Below are positions 4,209 to 16,977 of a stretch of 64,000 nt of DNA, piece after piece. Position 1 is the stretch's first letter, and every line of letters starts with the position of its first letter. A program made the translations under genes and the position numbers. The stretch is from an uncultured Pseudomonadota bacterium. Lineage in GTDB: Bacteria > Pseudomonadota > Gammaproteobacteria > CAJXQU01. The notes beneath the pieces are model-generated. The model saw nothing but the letters and a program-made list of their open reading frames with translations. It was not told the DNA's origin and searched no databases. The stretch is from positions 62,001 through 126,000 of the forward strand of contig CAJXQU010000001.1 of assembly GCA_913058255.1 (NCBI GenBank), given 5' to 3'.

Positions 4209-6692
4209 CTAGAAAGGTAGTTTTAGGCTTGGATCAAGTCCTAGAAGCTGTTCTTTAAACAATGCTTTTATTCGCTCAAGTGCTTCTGCATTATCTGCTT
4301 CAAATCTCATCACCAAACAGGGTGTTGTGTTTGAAGGTCTAATCAAACCCCAACCATCTGCAAAGTCGACTCGAATGCCATCAATCGTTCCAATTTCACC
4401 ATCACCGAAGTTTGCAAGCTCAAATAAGGTCGCCATAAAGGGGGCATGTTGTTCTTCGTGCATATCAAGTTTCAGCTCGGGTGTTGCTACACCACCGGGC
4501 AAACTTGCAAATATTTCATGTGGTTCTTTTTCTGCTTTGGTCAAAATTTCAAGTAAACGCGCAGCGGTATAAAGACCATCGTCAAAACCATACCAACGTT
4601 CCTTAAAGAAAACATGACCGCTCATTTCGCCTGCTAATAAGGCTCCTGTTTCCTTCATTTTACCTTTAATCAAGGAATGTCCCGTTTTCCACATAGTGGC
4701 TTTACCACCGGCTTCTTCGATCACACGCTTCAAATGGTTACTACATTTCACATCAAACAAAATCTCACAACCAGGGTTACGTTCAATCACGTCAGTCGCA
4801 AATAACATCATTTGACGATCAGGCCAGATCACATTGCCATCTCGATCAACGACTCCAAGCCGATCACCATCGCCATCAAATGCAAAACCCATGTCGGCAT
4901 TTTGCTCTTTTACCGTGCGGATCAAATCTTCGAGATTTTCAGGTTGACTTGGATCCGGGTGATGATTTGGGAAGTTACCATCAATTTCGCAGAATAACTC
5001 TACAACGTCATGCCCAAGTGCTCGAATCAATTGCGGCCCAAGTTGTCCGGCAACACCGTTGCCCGCATCAACAACGACTTTAAAAGAATTACTCAGCGCA
5101 ACAGGAATGTCATCGGTAATCCGACGAATATATTCTAAACCAAGCTCTGCAGATTGTGATTTACCCTGACCTTCTGTGTAATCACCATCAATGATGCGCT
5201 GACGGAGGGCCTGAATCGCTTCATCAGCTAATGTTGTTCCCTTGAGCACCATTTTGATGCCATTGTAGTTCGGCGGATTATGGCTACCCGTGATCATTAC
5301 GCCGCTAGTAGTATCAAAGTAATTTGCTGCGTAGTAGAGAACCGGTGTTGGCACCATACCAATATCAATAACATCACGGCCGCTATCCGTTAGGCCTTTA
5401 ATCAAAGCTTCTGAAAGCGCAGGACTCGATAATCGTCCATCACGACCAACCGCAACAATATTATCTCCACGCGCATGTGCTTCACTACCGAGCGCACGGC
5501 CAATGTTATAGACTATTTTCTCGGTTAGAGTTTCGTCCACAACACCACGTATATCGTAAGCCCTGAAGATGGAAGCTGGTGCTTCTGTTGCTTCGTCAAA
5601 ACCATTATTCTCAATGTCATCAATTTCCGGCACTTCTATATCCTCGTCGTCGTCAATTACAATTTCTTCTTCAATTTCAGCCTCATCAAATACAGCCTGA
5701 ACTTCTTCAACATCCATATCAGGCATATTCTCGATGAACTCGTCCATATCCCCAGTATCACCGGGAACAATCATTTGTGTTCGAGGTGCTTGTACATTAG
5801 CCGTTAAAATAAAGCGTGCTTGTCGTCTCACTCTAACCGCTCTAATCCATACAAACAATAACCCGAGCAATGTAGCTAGTCCGATCCAACCAAGCCGTTT
5901 CAAATTCGTTCTATCTATAACTTTGTTAGGGTACTGTTTTACCTTGATCGTCCACATAGCCCCTTTAACGGGCACAACAACCGCTTGTCCAGATAGTGCT
6001 CGTTGTTTATCACCCTGCTGCAACAATACAACCGTGCCACCACCTGAGATCTTTTGTCCAAGTTCTACTAATACATCATCTCGCTTCACAAGATCTTTAA
6101 ATAACGCATGAACAGGTTCAACCTGCAAACTTAAATGTAAGACACCAATTGCTTTGTTGTTTTCATTATTCACTCGCTGGACTAACACAATATGCTTCAA
6201 TGCATGCTCTAATAAAATCCACTCAACCTTCACAGGTTCTGCAGATTTAACTGCTTTTCCAGTCATCTCAAGCGAGGCAAAGGTTAAAGGTGGATTTTCT
6301 TGATCTGAATTGATATCGATAAGGTCAATATCAGGCGGTAATAAGCGAAGTTTGAGAGTGTTTTCAAAACGTGCCGTATTTTCTTCAGCAAACGCTTTCG
6401 CTTCAGAAGCTACATAATTATTAAAAAGTGAAAGAACCTCAGGTTCCTTACTCATTTTATTTAACTCATCAATATTTCTTGTAAACAACGAAGGAAGTTG
6501 CGCTGAAAGTCCTTTCGCGTACTCAGTCATTTCTTGCTTTTCAGCAACCAGCTTTTCCTGTTTCCGCTCTTCTAGCCAAGAAGGTAAAAAAAACTTTGCC
6601 AAAACAATCAGAACGACGAGCATTACAAGCCCCATTAGGACTCTGATCGTCATTGGAGATAATGGTTTCTTTTCTTTTTTCTTTTTTCTCAT
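4209..6692 (-). CDS. algC: Phosphomannomutase/phosphoglucomutase with N-terminal membrane module
   Basis: 827 residues. The C-terminal ~455 residues are a complete alpha-D-phosphohexomutase: FRAYDIRGVVDE (about 376), the phosphoserine loop TGSHNPPNYNG (about 467), the metal loop DGDGDR (about 607), the sugar loop GEMSGHVFF (about 689) and the phosphate site RPSNTTP (about 786). It interconverts mannose-6-P and mannose-1-P, and the glucose pair, for LPS and exopolysaccharide precursors. The first ~370 residues add a basic N-terminus, a membrane helix (about 14-34), a likely periplasmic region, a second helix (about 266-284) and a very acidic linker (about 330-370). Similarly extended AlgC proteins are known in Pseudomonas relatives. 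Confidence 0.92.
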   Translation of the reverse strand: MRKKKKEKKPLSPMTIRVLMGLVMLVVLIVLAKFFLPSWLEERKQEKLVAEKQEMTEYAKGLSAQLPSLFTRNIDELNKMSKEPEVLSLFNNYVASEAKAFAEENTARFENTLKLRLLPPDIDLIDINSDQENPPLTFASLEMTGKAVKSAEPVKVEWILLEHALKHIVLVQRVNNENNKAIGVLHLSLQVEPVHALFKDLVKRDDVLVELGQKISGGGTVVLLQQGDKQRALSGQAVVVPVKGAMWTIKVKQYPNKVIDRTNLKRLGWIGLATLLGLLFVWIRAVRVRRQARFILTANVQAPRTQMIVPGDTGDMDEFIENMPDMDVEEVQAVFDEAEIEEEIVIDDDEDIEVPEIDDIENNGFDEATEAPASIFRAYDIRGVVDETLTEKIVYNIGRALGSEAHARGDNIVAVGRDGRLSSPALSEALIKGLTDSGRDVIDIGMVPTPVLYYAANYFDTTSGVMITGSHNPPNYNGIKMVLKGTTLADEAIQALRQRIIDGDYTEGQGKSQSAELGLEYIRRITDDIPVALSNSFKVVVDAGNGVAGQLGPQLIRALGHDVVELFCEIDGNFPNHHPDPSQPENLEDLIRTVKEQNADMGFAFDGDGDRLGVVDRDGNVIWPDRQMMLFATDVIERNPGCEILFDVKCSNHLKRVIEEAGGKATMWKTGHSLIKGKMKETGALLAGEMSGHVFFKERWYGFDDGLYTAARLLEILTKAEKEPHEIFASLPGGVATPELKLDMHEEQHAPFMATLFELANFGDGEIGTIDGIRVDFADGWGLIRPSNTTPCLVMRFEADNAEALERIKALFKEQLLGLDPSLKLPF

Positions 6693-6741: not shown

Positions 6742-7197
6742 CTATTTTTTACCTGTGTGCCCGAATCCTCCGCGGCCTCGCTCACTCTCATCAAAGTTAT
6801 CGACAAGCTTAAAATTTGCTTGAATAACAGGCACAAACATAAGTTGTGCAATGCGTTCACCTGGTTCAATTTGAAATTTATCCTGTCCACGATTCCAACA
6901 AGAAACAAATAACTGCCCTTGATAATCAGAGTCAATCAAACCGACTAAATTCCCAAGCACAATACCATGCTTATGCCCCAAACCTGATCGAGGCAAAATA
7001 ACAGCAGCAAGGGACTCATCACCGATATGAATGGCTAAACCCGTTGGGATTAGCTCGGTCTGTCCTGGCTTTAACAGCATGGTTTCATCTAAACATGCTC
7101 GTAAATCCATTCCGGCAGAACCGCTTGTTGCATACTCAGGTAACGGAAACTCTGCGCCGATACGTTTATCAAGAATTTTTAATTCAATTTCATTCAT
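6742..7197 (-). CDS. dut: dUTP diphosphatase
   Basis: 151 residues, normal for the trimeric dUTPase. All five family motifs are present: AGMDLRA (28-34), PRSGLG (69-74), [10 protein letters not shown] (86-95), GERIAQL (113-119) and [10 protein letters not shown] (140-149), the last being the flexible C-terminal arm that closes over the substrate. It hydrolyses dUTP to dUMP and pyrophosphate, keeping uracil out of DNA and supplying thymidylate synthesis. Overlaps the end of coaBC by 8 bases and is followed by algC after 49 bases, so the three are likely one transcript. Confidence 0.96.
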
Positions 7198-8407
7198 TAT
7201 TGTTATCTATCTTTAGTTTATATCTATGAGCGACCAGCGTGATCAACTCGCTAGCAAGTTTTTGTTTTGAATTTCGTGATAATTCTTGCTCACCACCCTG
7301 CCAGAAAACATGCAGAGCATTATCATCGCTATGAAACCCTAGCTCAGGATCATCAACACGGTTTGCTGCAATCATATTTAATGATTTCCGTTTCAATTTA
7401 ACCTTGGCATGCTCAGCTAGCTTTTCAGTCTCCGCCGCAAAACCAACAGTAAAAGGAGGCTTCGTTAACGCAGCAACGTCCGCTAAAACATCTTGGGTCT
7501 TTTTCAAGATCAATGTCATTTCATCACCTGACTTTTTGATCTTCTGATCGGCAATAGCAGGGCAATAATAATCAGCAACTGCCGCCGCACTAATGAATAT
7601 ATCGTGAGTCTCAACTTCTTGCATGACCACATCTGATAGATCTTTTGCTGAAACAATATCAAGCTTGGTCACACCCGATGGCGCTTGAATGGCGACAGGG
7701 CCACTTACCAATGTAACTTCTGCACCGGCCTCAACCGCAGCTTGTGCAACGGCATAACCCATCTTGCCTGAGCTATGATTGGTAATATATCGGACTGGGT
7801 CCATCGCTTCGCGCGTTGGTCCAGCCGTGATCAAAACCTTGAGTCCTTGCAGCTCCCTTGTCTGAAAAACACCGGATAAACTTTCAACAATTTCCAAAGG
7901 TTCCAACATTCGGCCTAGACCGATATCACCACAAGCCTGCTCTCCTGAACCGGGCCCGAATTGTAGAACATCACGTTCAGCTAGTTTCTGACAATTTTCC
8001 TTTGTCGCACTCGCCTGCCACATTTGTTGGTTCATCGCTGGCGCAATCGCGAGTGGTGCCACCGTCGCTAAACATATTGCTGTCAGCAAGTCATCTGCCA
8101 TTCCATGGCTTAACCTTGCTATAAAGTTTGCACTGGCTGGCGCGATCAAAACCACATCAGTCCAACGAGCAAGTTCTATATGTCCCATGCCCGCTTCAGC
8201 GTTTGGATTGAGTAAATCAGTATGCACACGGTTTCCAGAAACCGCTTGAAAGGTCAGTGGTGTAACAAAGCTCTGCGCACCAGAGGTCATAACGACTCGT
8301 ACATCCGCACCTTGATCTTTAAGCCGTCGAACCAGATCTGCACTTTTATAAGCCGCAATTCCACCGGTTATTCCGAGTAAGACACGTTTGTTTTGTAAAT
8401 TCGACAT
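7190..8407 (-). CDS. coaBC: Bifunctional phosphopantothenoylcysteine decarboxylase / phosphopantothenate-cysteine ligase
   Basis: 405 residues with both CoA-synthesis activities. The N-terminal flavin decarboxylase half has [18 protein letters not shown] (about 12-29), the GHIELARW histidine region (about 74), PAMNQQMW (about 122) and the conserved cysteine in [11 protein letters not shown] (about 157). The C-terminal ligase half has [18 protein letters not shown] (about 192) and a KKTQDVLA substrate lysine region. Together they convert 4'-phosphopantothenate and cysteine to 4'-phosphopantetheine. First gene of coaBC-dut-algC, divergent from radC. Confidence 0.96.
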
Positions 8408-10764: not shown

Positions 10765-10789
10765 AACCGTCTTTTATGACGGTTTTTTT
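10765..10789 (+). terminator. Rho-independent terminator of rpmB-rpmG
   Basis: AACCGTC-TTTTAT-GACGGTT hairpin running into seven T residues, 39 bases after rpmG. Its T-run touches the stop codon of the convergent hydantoinase gene at 10788. Confidence 0.88.
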
Positions 10790-12767
10790 ATGACCGGGAT
10801 TTACTCAGTAAAAGGTTGCCTGTTTGATCTGAGCGGCATTCCCACCCAGACGAAACAAATGTTGTTGATACCGTTTCCATAATAACAGCCGGACCTTTGA
10901 TCAACTGGTTGATTGCCAACTGATGACGCTCCCAAATTGTAACGTCATCCTTTTCAGCGAAAATAGAAACAGAATCTAATGGTTTAGCGCGTGTTTTGTT
11001 CTCAATCGAAGGCAAAGCTAAAACTTCTGATTCACTCGACACGTTAACTCGAATATTAGTGAGTTCAATTTCCATCGCTAACCTATGCCCATATCGTTGT
11101 TCATGTTCTTGATGAAAATGTTCTGAAACGATTTGAATACTTTTTTGCCAAGCAATATTTAACGTAGACGATTGCCCTTTGTAACAAAGATCGAAGCTTT
11201 TACTGATCGTGATACTACTTTCTGACAAACCTTCTTGTAATAAAACCGCTCTGCCTTGTTCTGTAAGTCGCTCAAACTCAGCTTCCAACTCATGTAATTG
11301 AATATCGTTTATCAATACCGCGAGTGTTTTCGATAATTGCCGGCCTGGTTTCGCCGCCAGCATACCTAAAGCCGAGAGCACACCACCATTGGCTGGTACA
11401 AGTGCTGACCTCATATTTAAACTATCAGCCAATTCACAAACATGTAGTCCTCCAGCCCCACCGAAACATACCAGAACAAAATCGTTAGGATCATATCCCT
11501 TTTGCACCGAAATGACTCGCAAAGCACTCGCCATATGCTCATTAGCTATTTTAATCACACCCTCTGCAGCCTCTTCTACTGAACTCAAGCCCAGTTGTTT
11601 CGCAAGTTGTTGCATTGTAGAAACAGCATGCTCCTTATTAATCTGAAGCTTTCCCCCCAGCTTTGTAATAGCTGGTAAACGCCCCAAAATGAGGTTTGCA
11701 TCCGTTACCGTCGGTAGCTTTCCTCCCTGCCCATAACAAACGGGGCCAGGCTCCGCTCCTGCTGATTGCGGCCCAACCTGAAGTAAGCCCCCTTCATCAA
11801 CCCAAGCAATCGATCCACCCCCAGCGCCAATTGTATGAATATCCACCATTGGTACGGAAACAGGATATTCATCGATTTTCCCTTCAGATGTCAGCACAAT
11901 AGCATCATCTATTAATGCAACATCCGTTGAAGTGCCCCCCATATCAAGTGTCATAAGATGTTTATGGCCTGAAAGTTTGCTCACAAATCTCGCTCCTTCC
12001 AAACCTCCAGCAGGCCCCGACAAAAGCAAGTTTACAGCGAATCGACCTGCTTGATCTGCACGACATGTTCCGCCTGAGCTCTGCATAATTGATAACGTAA
12101 CATTTGGCAGTTTTTGCTCCATCCGCTGTAGGTAACCTTGTACCAGTGGGCCTACATACGAGTTAAGCCAAGTTGTTATCCCACGTTCATACTCCCTATA
12201 TTCAGGTAATACCTCAGAAGATATTGAGACAAAGAGGTCTTTGGGTAGCGCGGACTTTATACGCTGCTCTTGCTGATCATCCAAGAATGAAAAAAGTAAG
12301 CTGATCGCGACCGAATCTGGTTTAAGCGATTGAATAGATGAGACTAGCTGTTGAATATCAGCCTCCTTCATATCAACCAACAGATTTCCAGAGGCATCCA
12401 AGCGAGTATCTATTTCTAAGCACAACTCTCGATCAACGAGCGGAGGAACATACAGAGGTGTTAAGTTGTAAAGTTCTCGTCGTGCTTGTCGGCCAATAAT
12501 TAACAGATCACGAAAACCTTTATTCGTCACGAATGCCGTACGTACTCCCTTTCTCTCTAATAAGGCATTCGTTGCAACTGTAGAACCATGGACTAAGCGG
12601 AAGTCCCGTCCTTCTAAGCTCAAGTCCTTAATGCCTTGTAAGATCGCTTTTTCAGGGGCTTCGGGTGTCGATAAAACCTTATGAATCTTTAAAGAAGCTC
12701 CATCGGAGAGCACAAAATCCGTAAAAGTACCGCCAGTATCTATACCCAAATTCAAATTTTTAGTCAT
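10788..12767 (-). CDS. Hydantoinase/oxoprolinase family protein, HyuA-type subunit
   Basis: 659 residues of the ASKHA-fold hydantoinase A/oxoprolinase family. Nucleotide-binding motifs are visible: GIDTGGTFTDFVLSDG at 8-23, LLSGPAGGLEGARF in the middle and MTLDMGGTSTDVALIDD after it, plus the IGAGGGSIAWVD segment. Family members hydrolyse ATP to open cyclic amides (N-methylhydantoin, 5-oxoproline) or, with other subunits, carboxylate ketones. They normally work with a HyuB-type partner, which is absent on both sides here, so substrate and activity are open. Divergent from the ABC cassette with about 50 bases between starts. Confidence 0.85.
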   Translation of the reverse strand: MTKNLNLGIDTGGTFTDFVLSDGASLKIHKVLSTPEAPEKAILQGIKDLSLEGRDFRLVHGSTVATNALLERKGVRTAFVTNKGFRDLLIIGRQARRELYNLTPLYVPPLVDRELCLEIDTRLDASGNLLVDMKEADIQQLVSSIQSLKPDSVAISLLFSFLDDQQEQRIKSALPKDLFVSISSEVLPEYREYERGITTWLNSYVGPLVQGYLQRMEQKLPNVTLSIMQSSGGTCRADQAGRFAVNLLLSGPAGGLEGARFVSKLSGHKHLMTLDMGGTSTDVALIDDAIVLTSEGKIDEYPVSVPMVDIHTIGAGGGSIAWVDEGGLLQVGPQSAGAEPGPVCYGQGGKLPTVTDANLILGRLPAITKLGGKLQINKEHAVSTMQQLAKQLGLSSVEEAAEGVIKIANEHMASALRVISVQKGYDPNDFVLVCFGGAGGLHVCELADSLNMRSALVPANGGVLSALGMLAAKPGRQLSKTLAVLINDIQLHELEAEFERLTEQGRAVLLQEGLSESSITISKSFDLCYKGQSSTLNIAWQKSIQIVSEHFHQEHEQRYGHRLAMEIELTNIRVNVSSESEVLALPSIENKTRAKPLDSVSIFAEKDDVTIWERHQLAINQLIKGPAVIMETVSTTFVSSGWECRSDQTGNLLLSKSRS

Positions 12768-12817: not shown

Positions 12818-13558
12818 ATGGGAGAAGATTATTCTATTCAGGCCAGTGGCCTAACACGATCATACGGTGGTCGACTTGCAGCGAACAATATAAGCCTTGT
12901 TGTTAAGCCTGGCGAGGTGCTTGGCTTGCTTGGCGTTAATGGCGCAGGTAAATCCACAACCATGGATATGCTGGCAGGTATACAGATTCCCGACAAGGGA
13001 GATGTTTCAATTAGTGGTTATTCACTTACCAAGCAACCTCGGCAAGCGCGCAGACGTTTAGGTTATTTACCTGAGCAACCGCCTGTTTACCCTGAACTTA
13101 CTGTTAATGAATATTTAGGCTATTGTGCGAGACTGCGCCGAATCAAGGCAAAAAAAGTCGCGCCGGCTGTTGAGTATGTTAAGCAGCGATGTGGTCTGGT
13201 AGATGTAGGTCAACGTTTAATCAGGAACCTTTCAAAAGGGTATCAACAACGTGTAGGGATCGCGCAAGCCATCATTCATGAACCCGATATTATTATTCTT
13301 GATGAACCCACTGTTGGGCTCGATCCTGTACAAATCATCGAAATAAGAAAATTAATCCGTGAGCTTGGCCAAAGCCATAGCGTGATTTTATCGACCCATA
13401 TTTTACCAGAGGTATTAAGTATCTGTGATCACGTCACTATCTTACGGCAGGGAAAAGTCGTGCACAATGCACCGATCAGCTCATTTTCAAAAAATGAATC
13501 TCTGGAGCAGCTCTTTATAAAACTGACTTGTAACGATGAAGAAGTACTCACTTCATGA
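12818..13558 (+). CDS. ABC transporter ATP-binding protein, GldA-like
   Basis: 246 residues from the ATG at 12818; an upstream TTG at 12770 would lengthen it but adds residues with no family similarity, so the ATG is preferred. Motifs: Walker A GVNGAGKST (39-47), signature LSKGYQQRVGIAQA (about 138), Walker B IIILDEPTVGLDP (about 157) and the switch histidine in LSTHILPEV. It belongs with the ATPases that pair with ABC-2 permeases and GldG-like proteins. First gene of a four-gene cassette; its last four bases overlap the permease start (ATGA). Confidence 0.88.
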   Translation: MGEDYSIQASGLTRSYGGRLAANNISLVVKPGEVLGLLGVNGAGKSTTMDMLAGIQIPDKGDVSISGYSLTKQPRQARRRLGYLPEQPPVYPELTVNEYLGYCARLRRIKAKKVAPAVEYVKQRCGLVDVGQRLIRNLSKGYQQRVGIAQAIIHEPDIIILDEPTVGLDPVQIIEIRKLIRELGQSHSVILSTHILPEVLSICDHVTILRQGKVVHNAPISSFSKNESLEQLFIKLTCNDEEVLTS

Positions 13559-14292
13559 TTAACACTATCGCAGGAAGAGAATTACGAAGTATTTTCGTCT
13601 CACCATTGGCTTGGACAACACTAGCAATCCTACAATTTCTTTTCGCCTATTTACTCTTCAGCCGAATCGAACTATTCATGCAATACTTACCAAGATTAAG
13701 AACGATGGATGCAGCTCCCGGTATAACTGAAATAGTAGCAATGGGACTATTTTCTATTGCCGGTTTGGTTTTACTGGTTATCACGCCTCTTTTCTGTTCT
13801 CGCGCCCTTGCGGAAGAACGTCGTAGTGGCACATTGAAATTAACCTTGTCTTCACCCGTTTCATTAACCGATATTGTTCTTGGTAAGTTTATTGGCCTGC
13901 TAAGCTTTTTTCTGATCATTATTTTTCTATTGGCCTGCATGGCATTTTCATTAGCACTCGGGGGACCAATAGATTTTCTACAAATTCTGGGGGGTACCTT
14001 AGGCCTCGTTTTATTAACCTCAGCCTGCATTGCTATCGGACTTTTCATGTCGTCATTGACCAATCAGCCCACCGTTGCCGCCATTAGCACTTTTGCATCT
14101 TTATTTTTCCTATGGATTATCAAATGGGATGATGAAAATGTATTAGGTATCACAACCTACCTTTCTATCCAAGAACATTTCAGCTCAATATTATCTGGAC
14201 GGCTTGCCAGTGTTGACGTGATTTTTTTTATTTTAGTAAGCTTTTTCTTTCTCAGCCTCACAATCTGGCGACTCGATTTGGAGCGTAATTAA
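13555..14292 (+). CDS. ABC-2 type permease, GldF-like
   Basis: 245 residues with six predicted membrane segments, a long first extracytoplasmic loop (about 40-60), and the conserved SRALAEERRSGTLKLTLSSP coupling segment (about 82-101) typical of ABC-2/NosY/GldF permeases. It overlaps the ATPase gene by four bases and abuts the next gene with no gap, so the three are translationally coupled. In Bacteroidetes the equivalent GldF acts with GldA and GldG in gliding and secretion; in gammaproteobacteria the exported substrate is unknown. Confidence 0.85.
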   Translation: MINTIAGRELRSIFVSPLAWTTLAILQFLFAYLLFSRIELFMQYLPRLRTMDAAPGITEIVAMGLFSIAGLVLLVITPLFCSRALAEERRSGTLKLTLSSPVSLTDIVLGKFIGLLSFFLIIIFLLACMAFSLALGGPIDFLQILGGTLGLVLLTSACIAIGLFMSSLTNQPTVAAISTFASLFFLWIIKWDDENVLGITTYLSIQEHFSSILSGRLASVDVIFFILVSFFFLSLTIWRLDLERN

Positions 14293-15612
14293 ATGAGACT
14301 AAGTCGACAATTTAATTCACTACTCTTTCCGGTTCTGCTTTTTACCTGTGTCGTGCTTCTAGCTTGGGCAAGCGTACAAAAAATGGTCATAACCGATCTC
14401 ACCGGCAATAGCCGACTTTCATTAACACAACCTAGTGTAGCCTTAATTGAAAAAATGAAAGGCTTGATTGAAATTGATGTTTATGTAAATAGAACCGATC
14501 AATTAGGACAGAAAGTTGAAAAGCTCTTCTCACAATATCAAAAAATAAAACCAGATATTAAGCTCAACTTTATCAGCCCAGAAGAGAATCCCGGCTTGAT
14601 TCGAAAACACAACATTCGCTTTCCTGCTGAAATGTTAATCCATTATCAAGACAAAACTGAACACCTACAAAAGCCATCAGAACAATCCATTACCAATACT
14701 TTAGCCAGCCTTTTTCGCGGTTCTGATCGGTGGTTAGTTTATTTAAATGGTCATGGTGAGCGAGCACCTTCTGGCAAGGCTAATTTTGACCTTGGAACGT
14801 TTGCAAACCATTTACAATCGCGTGGTTTAAAATCACAAATTTTAAATATTTCCGAAACAAAAACTATTCCAGATAATACATCCGTTTTAATTATTGCAAA
14901 TCCAAAAGTTGACCTATTGCCAGATGAGTTTAGCATTATAGAAGAATACCTAGAAAATGGTGGAAGCCTTCTCTGGTTAACGGAGCCGGAACAAAGAAGA
15001 CTCTTTCCAAAACTAGCAAAGTTATTAGAAATAAAATTTCTTCCTGGTGTAATCGTTGATGCCACAGGTCAGTCCTTAAAGATTACACAACCTGATCTGA
15101 TACCAATCATAAAATATTCAGATCATATAGTGACAAAAAACTTTGATCTAACAACACTATTCCCACAAGCAACAGCCATCAAACCTTATAAAACAAATCA
15201 CTGGAAATTTAGCTCCATAATTGTGACCAGTGAGCAGTCATGGAATGAAATGTCCGCGGTAAAAGAGCACGTCGATTATGATAAAAAATATGAAACTCTC
15301 GGTCCTTTGAATATAGCTTTAGCTTTTGAATCCAACAACTCAGCTCAACGTATCATTGTCGTCGGTGAAAGTGACTTTCTTTCTAATCGCTATATCGGAA
15401 ATGGTGGGAATTTAGACCTTGGTATCCGTATGTTAAACTGGTTAGCCGCTGACGATCAGCTGATCACTATTCCAACACGTGTGGCTACCGATCTTGATTT
15501 TGAATTATCCAAAACAAATTCTGCTATTATTGGGCTTGGTTTTTTATACGTCCTTCCATTAATATTTACCATCACTGGATTAATCATCTGGTGGCGACGC
15601 AGATCAAGATAA
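14293..15612 (+). CDS. GldG-like ABC-associated extracytoplasmic protein
   Basis: 439 residues. One membrane helix near the N-terminus (about 10-28) and one near the C-terminus (about 412-432) flank a large domain outside the cytoplasm of the ABC-transporter auxiliary type: IDVYVNRTDQLG and FSQYQKIKPDIKLNFISP (about 59-100), then a Rossmann-like part with VLIIANPKVDLLPDEF and GGSLLWLTEPE. Such proteins always accompany GldA/GldF-like ATPase-permease pairs. Starts immediately after the permease stop. The short basic tail (WWRRRSR) faces the cytoplasm. Confidence 0.82.
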   Translation: MRLSRQFNSLLFPVLLFTCVVLLAWASVQKMVITDLTGNSRLSLTQPSVALIEKMKGLIEIDVYVNRTDQLGQKVEKLFSQYQKIKPDIKLNFISPEENPGLIRKHNIRFPAEMLIHYQDKTEHLQKPSEQSITNTLASLFRGSDRWLVYLNGHGERAPSGKANFDLGTFANHLQSRGLKSQILNISETKTIPDNTSVLIIANPKVDLLPDEFSIIEEYLENGGSLLWLTEPEQRRLFPKLAKLLEIKFLPGVIVDATGQSLKITQPDLIPIIKYSDHIVTKNFDLTTLFPQATAIKPYKTNHWKFSSIIVTSEQSWNEMSAVKEHVDYDKKYETLGPLNIALAFESNNSAQRIIVVGESDFLSNRYIGNGGNLDLGIRMLNWLAADDQLITIPTRVATDLDFELSKTNSAIIGLGFLYVLPLIFTITGLIIWWRRRSR

Positions 15613-15614
15613 AA

Positions 15615-16106
15615 ATGTCGAAACGTACTATTGTTAATTTATTGCTACTGGCTATTGTTGCCACATTAACTGTTTACGTTAAAAAAAATCCCGTGCAAGA
15701 TAATGAAATCACCAACTTCACCCAGTTGGCTGAAAGTGAAGTTAATACCATTGTTATTCAGCGTTCGGATCAAACTCAAATAATTTTAGAAAAAATAGAT
15801 AGTGACTGGCTAATTACCTCTCCAGTAGAAGGGAAAATCCATTTTGAAAAGCTCAGTCTTCTACTAAAAATTCTTGTTCTAAAGAGTCGTCATCAACACA
15901 TAATTACAGAACCGAAACAACTCATACGCTATGATTTAAATAATCCAAAAGTATCCTTATTTCTAAATGATGAACAATTTGATTTTGGAAATACTAACGA
16001 CTTTAATAAACTACGCTATATCCTTCATGATGAGGTGGTTCACTCGGTTAAAGATATTACTTATCATTTATTGATCGATAAACCTGAATCATTTCTGCAA
16101 CCTTAA
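15615..16106 (+). CDS. DUF4340 domain protein of the Gld-like cassette
   Basis: 163 residues from the ATG at 15615, which follows the previous stop by two bases; a GTG at 15591 would overlap the upstream gene and is less likely. It has an N-terminal membrane anchor (about 5-24) and one extracytoplasmic DUF4340-like domain with the recurring pattern IVIQRSDQTQIILEKIDSDW then ITSPVEGK. DUF4340 proteins are usually longer, so this is a compact version. Last gene of the ABC cassette, 23 bases before mutM. Function unknown; its constant company suggests it helps the GldG-like protein. Confidence 0.72.
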   Translation: MSKRTIVNLLLLAIVATLTVYVKKNPVQDNEITNFTQLAESEVNTIVIQRSDQTQIILEKIDSDWLITSPVEGKIHFEKLSLLLKILVLKSRHQHIITEPKQLIRYDLNNPKVSLFLNDEQFDFGNTNDFNKLRYILHDEVVHSVKDITYHLLIDKPESFLQP

Positions 16107-16129: not shown

Positions 16130-16948
16130 ATGCCTGAGTTACCTGAAGTAGAAACAACAAAACGAGGTATTGCACCTCATATTCTCGACCAAACAATTAT
16201 AAATGTTATTGTTAGAGATCGCCGTTTACGTTGGCCTATACCGGAACAACTACAACTAGAGGCAACTGGCCAAAAGGTCATCTCAATAAAACGACGTGGT
16301 AAATATATTCTGATCGAAACTATTGCTGGTACGATTATTTTACATCTCGGCATGTCAGGAAACCTTCGGATTCTAGCCTCTGATACTCCTCCTAAAAAAC
16401 ATGACCATGTCGACTTTATATTTAACAATAATCAATGTTTACGATTACATGATCCACGTCGATTTGGTGCTTGCTTATGGACCACAGAAGATCCCTTAGA
16501 TCACAAACTATTAAAAGATATTGGGCCCGAGCCTTGGGATGATGCTTTCACAGCCAATATGTTATTTAAGCGATCACGTAATCGAACACTCGCCATCAAA
16601 AACTTTATTATGGATAGTAAAGTAGTTGTTGGTGTTGGAAATATCTACGCAAGCGAGTCTTTATTTCAAGCGGGTATTAATCCTGAAACTCCGGCCGGAA
16701 AAATTTCATTAAACCGTTATAAAAAACTATTTATAGCTATACAGAAAATTCTTGAAAAATCCATTCAGCAAGGTGGTACAACCTTAAAAGACTTCACTAA
16801 TAGTTCCGGACAACCAGGATACTTTAAACAAGAATTACTAGTTTATGATCGTGAAGGCAAACCTTGTGTCAATTGTGAGCGACCCATTTCTAAAGTAGTA
16901 ATCGGTCAACGCTCAAGCTTTTATTGTAATCTCTGTCAAAAAAAATAA
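16130..16948 (+). CDS. mutM: Formamidopyrimidine-DNA glycosylase
   Basis: 272 residues. The mature N-terminus PELPEVETT provides the catalytic proline (residue 2) and glutamate (residue 3); KRRGKYILIE (about 57-66) holds the beta-elimination lysine; the helix-two-turn-helix region is around VVVGVGNIYASESLF; and a C-terminal four-cysteine zinc finger (CVNC ... YCNLC, about 246-270) is intact. It excises 8-oxoguanine and formamidopyrimidines and nicks the abasic site. It probably shares the transcript of the ABC cassette. Confidence 0.96.
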   Translation: MPELPEVETTKRGIAPHILDQTIINVIVRDRRLRWPIPEQLQLEATGQKVISIKRRGKYILIETIAGTIILHLGMSGNLRILASDTPPKKHDHVDFIFNNNQCLRLHDPRRFGACLWTTEDPLDHKLLKDIGPEPWDDAFTANMLFKRSRNRTLAIKNFIMDSKVVVGVGNIYASESLFQAGINPETPAGKISLNRYKKLFIAIQKILEKSIQQGGTTLKDFTNSSGQPGYFKQELLVYDREGKPCVNCERPISKVVIGQRSSFYCNLCQKK

Positions 16949-16977
16949 AAAAGGCCTGCCTTTTTAGGCAAGCCTTT
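16941..16977 (-). terminator. Bidirectional terminator between mutM and epimerase
   Basis: AAAGGCCTGCC-TTTTTA-GGCAAGCCTTT hairpin (about ten pairs, one internal mismatch). On the minus strand it runs into TTTTTTATTTTTTT, a strong terminator for the epimerase gene; on the plus strand the same stem can end the mutM transcript although the following T-run is short. Confidence 0.85.

Follow-up and report, generated by a model that had tools for sequence, protein, structure and literature searches.

A GldAFG-like ABC cassette with an optional DUF4340-related accessory in an uncultured gammaproteobacterium and its relatives

The closest described relatives of the locus reported here are the gliding-associated GldA, GldF and GldG proteins of Flavobacterium. 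Loss of GldG in flavobacteria lowers the components of the type IX secretion system (T9SS), and mutants in gldA, gldF or gldG form no biofilm, as stated in PMC5682007 and PMC8444969 and, for GldF and GldK, in PMC9127263. Genes resembling GldAFG have also been held responsible for the gliding of Thiothrix nivea (PMC3368414), and GldG, together with IFT52, has given its name to the GIFT domains, which have been proposed to bind sugars (PMC7226087 and PMC10191852). Here we describe a four-gene cassette of this type, encoding an ATP-binding cassette (ABC) ATPase (A), an ABC-2 permease (F), a GldG-like protein (G) and a small DUF4340-related protein (D), in an uncultured gammaproteobacterium. It lies in a stretch of 64,000 nucleotides of contig CAJXQU010000001.1, referred to below as the window, from a genome of 2.8 Mb in 33 contigs. 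Comparison with related genomes showed that A, F and G form a core that is kept together, and that D is an accessory.

The original prediction of four tightly coupled genes at positions 12,818 to 16,106 was borne out, all four being present, consecutive and on the + strand (Table 1). A and F overlap by 4 bp, and F and G adjoin with zero gap. The mechanically called open reading frame of A opens earlier, at TTG 12770. For D the likeliest start is ATG 15615, 2 bp after the stop of G; the alternative, GTG 15591, would give a protein of 171 amino acids (aa) and a 22-bp overlap with G. Three terminator-like + strand sites, overlapping or neighbouring, were located inside F by consensus match, and all such sites together were not clearly more numerous than in shuffled sequences. 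The order A-F-G-D recurred in most of 127 loci picked for having G; thus, the window cassette is not a chance arrangement.

A matched ABC_tran with 109.5 bits (cut-off 25), F matched ABC2_membrane_2 with 59.4 bits (cut-off 27.2), and G matched ABC_transp_aux (PF09822) with 76.2 bits (cut-off 34.7). A contains the Walker A, signature and Walker B motifs and the H-loop, and A and F together have the ATPase motifs and the permease domain expected of an ABC-2 exporter. As had been predicted, the top NCBIfam matches of A, F and G were GldA, GldF and GldG, with scores below the equivalog cut-offs in all three cases (247.8 against 402.6, 91.7 against 288.5, and 42.0 against 389.85, respectively). A lacks the C-terminal extension of about 70-75 aa that is typical of its relatives, most of which are 303-350 aa long. 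A crude hydropathy scan of F gave six windows, two of them overlapping, that is, five separate hydrophobic segments; the scan also placed one hydrophobic segment at each end of G and one in D. These two segments in G and one in D agree with the extracytoplasmic parts that had been proposed for both proteins, which would require the corresponding orientation in the membrane.

To assess occurrence, the window proteins were used as queries against 94 genomes, among which 92 family codes of the class are represented. Of these genomes, 48 contained G, and all 48 also contained F, 45 of the F matches having E ≤ 3.8e-23; the remaining three (G003, G011 and G046, E 1.2e-17 to 3.0e-16) lay beside G or shared one open frame with it. 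The D profile at E ≤ 1e-30 matched 38 of the 48 G-positive and none of the 46 G-negative genomes (Fisher p 2e-17, with kinship ignored). Among the weaker D matches, that of G062 (6e-24) came from a genome without a G of the window type, and the others were no stronger than 4e-14, several of them being located beside a G of a longer class. Ten G-positive genomes had no D at this threshold. One of them (G001) ends at a contig edge there, and the other nine have no D; in seven of the nine G abuts mutM, and in two another gene fills the place of D (loci L098 and L102). In L098 this gene, at 7118-8122 between G and mutM, encodes a protein of 334 aa that by eye resembles chorismatase-type enzymes, and a similar protein is present in L102. 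In L110 (G036:C1), G is split in two and the distant remnant of D contains a stop, so that the whole cassette seems to be decaying.

Beyond the class, a draw of 200 genomes from the phylum gave G at E ≤ 1e-20 in 37, of which 33 were outside the class, with 25-31% identity. Of 14 well-known genomes scanned as controls, 2 contained PF09822, and E. coli was not one of the two. What looks like a GldAFG-like ABC machine, still uncharacterised, is present in roughly half of the families that were sampled within the class. Among open-licence papers we found no study of a class-wide unit, of its function or of an optional D. The protein families themselves are known.

The gene neighbourhood was compared in two sets of loci, set 1 with 47 loci and set 2 with 80, the latter being the best 80 of at least 570 relatives; loci with less than 2.5 kb upstream, less than 2 kb downstream or, for the hydantoinase-type gene HyuA, less than 4 kb upstream of G were left out of the respective counts. 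The usual order was A-F-G-D-mutM. Cultured relatives with the full cassette include Sedimenticola selenatireducens and Thiohalobacter thiocyanaticus. A was beside G in 44/45 loci of set 1 and 65/70 of set 2, and F in 43/45 and 65/70. The set 1 exceptions were L080, with A and F not beside G and F on another contig, and L105, an F-G fusion. In all five exceptions of set 2 (L113, L117, L118, L138 and L173), an adjacent A-F pair was retained elsewhere in the genome; the genomes of L113 and L118 additionally contain a more distant A-F-G set. In 14 loci from outside the class, which came from 13 of the 33 genomes, A, F and G stood together in 14/14 and D was present in 13/14. On the question of separate distribution that had been attached to the original prediction, genome comparison supported a joint occurrence of A, F and G.

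The open frames containing G fell into three main size classes of about 450 aa (the window type), 590-660 aa and 960-1030 aa. In eight genomes (G010, G017, G045, G049, G057, G064, G076 and G077), the F and G matches lay on the same contig and strand in an open frame of equal length (964-1030 aa), which we take to be one frame, and the mutM-linked type of G011 was likewise fused, which brings the total to nine genomes. Such fusion argues for contact between F and G.

Between its two terminal hydrophobic helices, G has a part resembling thioredoxin and a domain of the GIFT type, with a GHGER motif at residue 153. Its structural model (pLDDT 86.4, pTM 0.80; predicted local distance difference test and predicted template-modelling score) was used in a fold search, which over part of its length matched an oligosaccharyltransferase chain (E 1.7e-10), presumably Wbp1/OST48, and chains of the IFT52 N-domain (E 8.4e-10 to 3.2e-7, template-modelling (TM) score by target 0.67-0.80), followed by ThuA-like and thioredoxin-like proteins. 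Part of G thus has the GIFT fold, as judged from the best IFT52 match, in addition to passing PF09822. A sequence search of solved structures with G gave nothing reliable, IFT52 appearing at E 1.3.

The description of D as a compact DUF4340 protein had to be revised. The window D did not pass DUF4340 (PF14238; 16.3 bits, with the cut-off at 25, E 0.012), whereas the one full-length relative scanned, the D of L068, did so with 40.7 bits. In most relatives D has about 290 aa and two parts, and the window D aligns to the N-terminal half; on this alignment, it appears to be the N-terminal domain of a DUF4340-related family, the second domain being missing. A second genome of the genus also has a short D (L066, 174 aa, 59% identity), and the AlphaFold2 model of the short D reached a mean pLDDT of 94.4, so that it looks, as far as a model can tell, like a complete folded unit. 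A broken gene or an assembly error was ruled out by the D of L066, the pLDDT value and the single place in the genome matched by the D profile. A sequence search of solved structures with D gave no reliable match, and the fold candidates 4r7r and 2mct (VIA-align Z 6.7 and 6.3) were set aside, since values in this range may mean a common arrangement only. In a Verrucomicrobium protein with DUF4340, this domain is essential (PMC12283558).

At the threshold given above D occurs only together with G, but it is not obligatory. D is an accessory that is missing from nine G-bearing genomes and has several times been cut down to its N-terminal domain. Set 1 contained 29 full, 5 one-domain and 10 absent states in 44 loci, and set 2 contained 65, 1 and 1 in 67. 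The ten absent cases include L104, in which D is displaced, the decaying L110, and L098 and L102 with the other gene in its place, and L079, counted among the five one-domain cases, contains an ambiguous residue. A FastTree tree was built for 126 G proteins, 120 of which had a sure D state (full in 105, one-domain in 7 and absent in 8); the rows of L067, L079, L098, L102, L135 and L166 were not counted, and L110 was omitted for its length. On this tree, which has some long branches, the one-domain form requires five changes and absence requires four. We read these changes as losses because the full form is the commonest, the direction being our reading and not an output of the tool. D thus offers a natural series of full, one-domain and absent forms, and in the window genus the machine is pared down, A lacking its C-terminal extension and D its second domain.

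After removal of the MutM distance, partial r over 84 loci was 0.77 for A-F, 0.64 for F-G, 0.57 for A-G, 0.48 for G-D, 0.44 for A-D and 0.38 for F-D; D tracked G somewhat more closely than A or F. Relative to MutM, the A, F and G proteins were more divergent in the 7 D-less loci than in the 84 loci with full D (p 2e-5 to 4e-5).

The reading that we favour, with a probability of roughly 0.45, is that the A-F-G core and the accessory D constitute an ABC machine of the envelope, which would work on a component that carries a saccharide or is amphiphilic in some other way. Genome comparison lends good support to the status of A, F and G as the core, and the computed support as a whole comprises gene order, co-occurrence, retention when the cassette is split, F-G fusions, the fold of G, the stand-alone fold of D and its repeated reduction. 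Two A and two F subunits would form an ABC-2 motor in the inner membrane, which we take to be of the Wzm/ABCG-like type (type V). G, anchored at both ends, would hold its thioredoxin-like and GIFT-type domains in the periplasm beside F, and D, which has a single helix and a small domain rich in beta structure, may dock on G or F and adjust the machine. ATP hydrolysis would power the extrusion or the periplasmic handling of an envelope component. A lipid or polymer that bears a saccharide would be the most likely cargo, given that GIFT domains belong to IFT52 and oligosaccharyltransferase subunits and are proposed sugar binders; this suggestion draws on one domain and on the lack of other leads.

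Several observations weigh against this reading. Sugar binding by GIFT domains is itself a proposal, and the fold matches of G, the ThuA-like and thioredoxin folds included, are partial (TM score by query about 0.4). No Foldseek match of D was found at E ≤ 0.001. The F matches of G003, G011 and G046 were no stronger than that of the G-negative G017 (2.8e-18, in a long F-G frame). The distance correlations arise partly from shared descent, which a single MutM control removes incompletely, and for one-domain D the divergence test was significant for F only (F 0.018, G 0.055, A 0.26). No glycan genes were recognised by eye among the recurrent neighbours, four types of which were scanned. In addition, a link to glycans through the O-antigen ligase-type family PF04932 did not clearly hold: the family was present in 46/48 G-positive and 34/46 G-negative genomes (p 0.003 over the 94 genomes), and this dropped to 43/44 against 24/27 (p 0.15) among genomes of at least 2 Mb.

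The main rival explanation, which we regard as less likely, is a mechanical machine without transported cargo, in which ATP use by A and F would move G and D in the periplasm and so bring about the activation or maturation of an enzyme of the envelope. FtsEX, MacB and NosFYD provide precedents for such machines. G and D would both be folded parts outside the cytoplasm, neither matched a classical binding-protein family, and the permease F is small, all of which would suit this explanation; mechanotransmission has moreover been described for ABC systems (PMC12646458 and PMC5985334). However, F is an ABC-2 permease and not of the FtsX/MacB type, and besides mutM no enzyme gene was frequent downstream on the same strand. 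Export of drugs or antimicrobial peptides, or self-protection in the manner of DrrAB and the lantibiotic immunity transporters, is quite improbable. A matched DrrA and lantibiotic-protection ATPase models and F weakly matched MutE/EpiE, but all these matches were below the cut-offs, and the recurrent chromosomal place by mutM and the broad occurrence are unlike those of immunity genes. To our knowledge, G and D have no counterpart in such transporters.

Even less probable is an oxidative-damage module, in which the transporter would serve the process of mutM and perhaps be co-transcribed with it. The gene mutM, which had been overlooked in the first description, was located within 2 kb downstream in 36/44 loci of set 1 and 52/67 of set 2, and by consensus match no + strand terminator-like site was detected between D and mutM in the window. 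Nevertheless, the A-F-G units outside the class stand without mutM (0/13 loci with downstream sequence, L207 ending at a contig edge), and in five genomes A and F are parted from G and mutM. A function coupled to MutM is therefore disfavoured, and mutM is probably a neighbour and not a functional part of the cassette. The hairpin behind mutM was rejected as its terminator: by consensus match, the T-run is on the - strand only. As a terminator it would suit the epimerase gene better, and it does not establish a transcript end after mutM.

Least credible of all is a role in gliding, the function that these three gene names had suggested for Thiothrix, since A, F and G are all under the equivalog cut-offs and SprA was present in only 1 of the 94 genomes, G093, which itself lacks G. 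SprA, the only gliding/T9SS marker searched (the other Gld proteins were not), was not found in the window genome; this single marker agrees with the earlier remark that bacteria of this type do not glide in the Bacteroidetes fashion. In bacteria without the marker, the unit thus appears as a core of three parts to which a fourth may be added, and GldAFG-like gene names should therefore not serve as a sign of gliding.

Around the cassette, a divergent HyuA gene recurred in 20/45 loci of set 1 and 27/63 of set 2. In the window no HyuB is listed beside it among the open reading frames, and its top NCBIfam match, below the cut-off, was the caprolactamase alpha subunit. Other recurrent neighbours among the 127 loci, with one member of each scanned, were a fatty-acid desaturase (28), a gamma-glutamyltranspeptidase (28), an EAL-HDOD protein (19) and a protoglobin-GGDEF protein (15), and no functional link could be argued from these four. 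The protoglobin-GGDEF gene adjoins A in divergent orientation in L077, L099, L106, L121, L123, L125, L128, L135, L139, L144, L148, L151, L163, L168 and L176, with HyuA behind it in 14 of these 15 loci. Similar beginnings were seen by eye next to the A-F pairs of the split genomes L194, L196, L197 and L198. A link of the cassette to oxygen and cyclic di-GMP is possible in some lineages. In three loci inspected from outside the class, a gene that by eye is glutamine-synthetase-like lies upstream. Elsewhere in the window (4209-6692), a protein of 827 aa appears by eye to be a phosphomannomutase whose long N-terminal part is anchored in the membrane.

Table 1. Coordinates of the cassette genes and other features. 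Positions refer to the window, except for the second cassette, which is given in the coordinates of locus L064.
Feature	Position	Strand	Remark
A, ABC ATPase, 246 aa	12818..13558	+	start ATG 12818
F, ABC-2 permease, 245 aa	13555..14292	+	
G, GldG-like protein, 439 aa	14293..15612	+	
D, membrane-anchored single-helix protein, 163 aa	15615..16106	+	start ATG
mutM (Fpg DNA glycosylase)	16130..16948	+	23 bp after D; same strand
HyuA-type hydantoinase/oxoprolinase	10788..12767	-	divergent from A, 50-bp gap; recurrent neighbour
12-pair hairpin	16950..16977	-	between mutM and convergent epimerase gene
Second, larger cassette of the window genome (G000:C3)	L064 6076-10844	-	A 325, F 244, G 621, DUF4340 391 aa

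One system for comparison is in the window genome itself, where a second, larger cassette, overlooked in the first description, has the same four-part order. Its G, which falls in the intermediate size class, was not matched by the window G query at E ≤ 0.001, its D passes DUF4340 with 60.7 bits, unlike the window D, and no mutM occurs in the 19 kb of sequence compared there. We take this cassette to be of the PA4037-PA4040 type. PA4040 is annotated as DUF4340 (PMC8088628). The F-G fusion class shares the permease and GldG-type parts and differs in its single open frame, found in 8 of the 94 genomes. NosFYD likewise combines an ABC-2 motor with a periplasmic partner, as A-F is combined with G, and the fold of NosD is different. 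IFT52 and OST48/Wbp1, which resemble the central part of G in fold, are eukaryotic and are not known to work with an ABC motor. In oligosaccharyltransferase a subunit sits beside the lipid-linked donor, to which G beside the ABC-2 motor may be likened; by this analogy one could imagine an envelope pathway that runs through the class and is absent from E. coli. In it a GIFT protein would take a lipid-linked saccharide from the motor, and the DUF4340-related accessory would be removable, a picture that we consider rather improbable in this specific form. With Flavobacterium GldA-GldF-GldG, the window cassette shares the set of an ATPase, an ABC-2 permease and a GldG-type protein; it differs in scoring below the three equivalog cut-offs, in belonging to a genome without SprA, and in the addition of the fourth gene, D.

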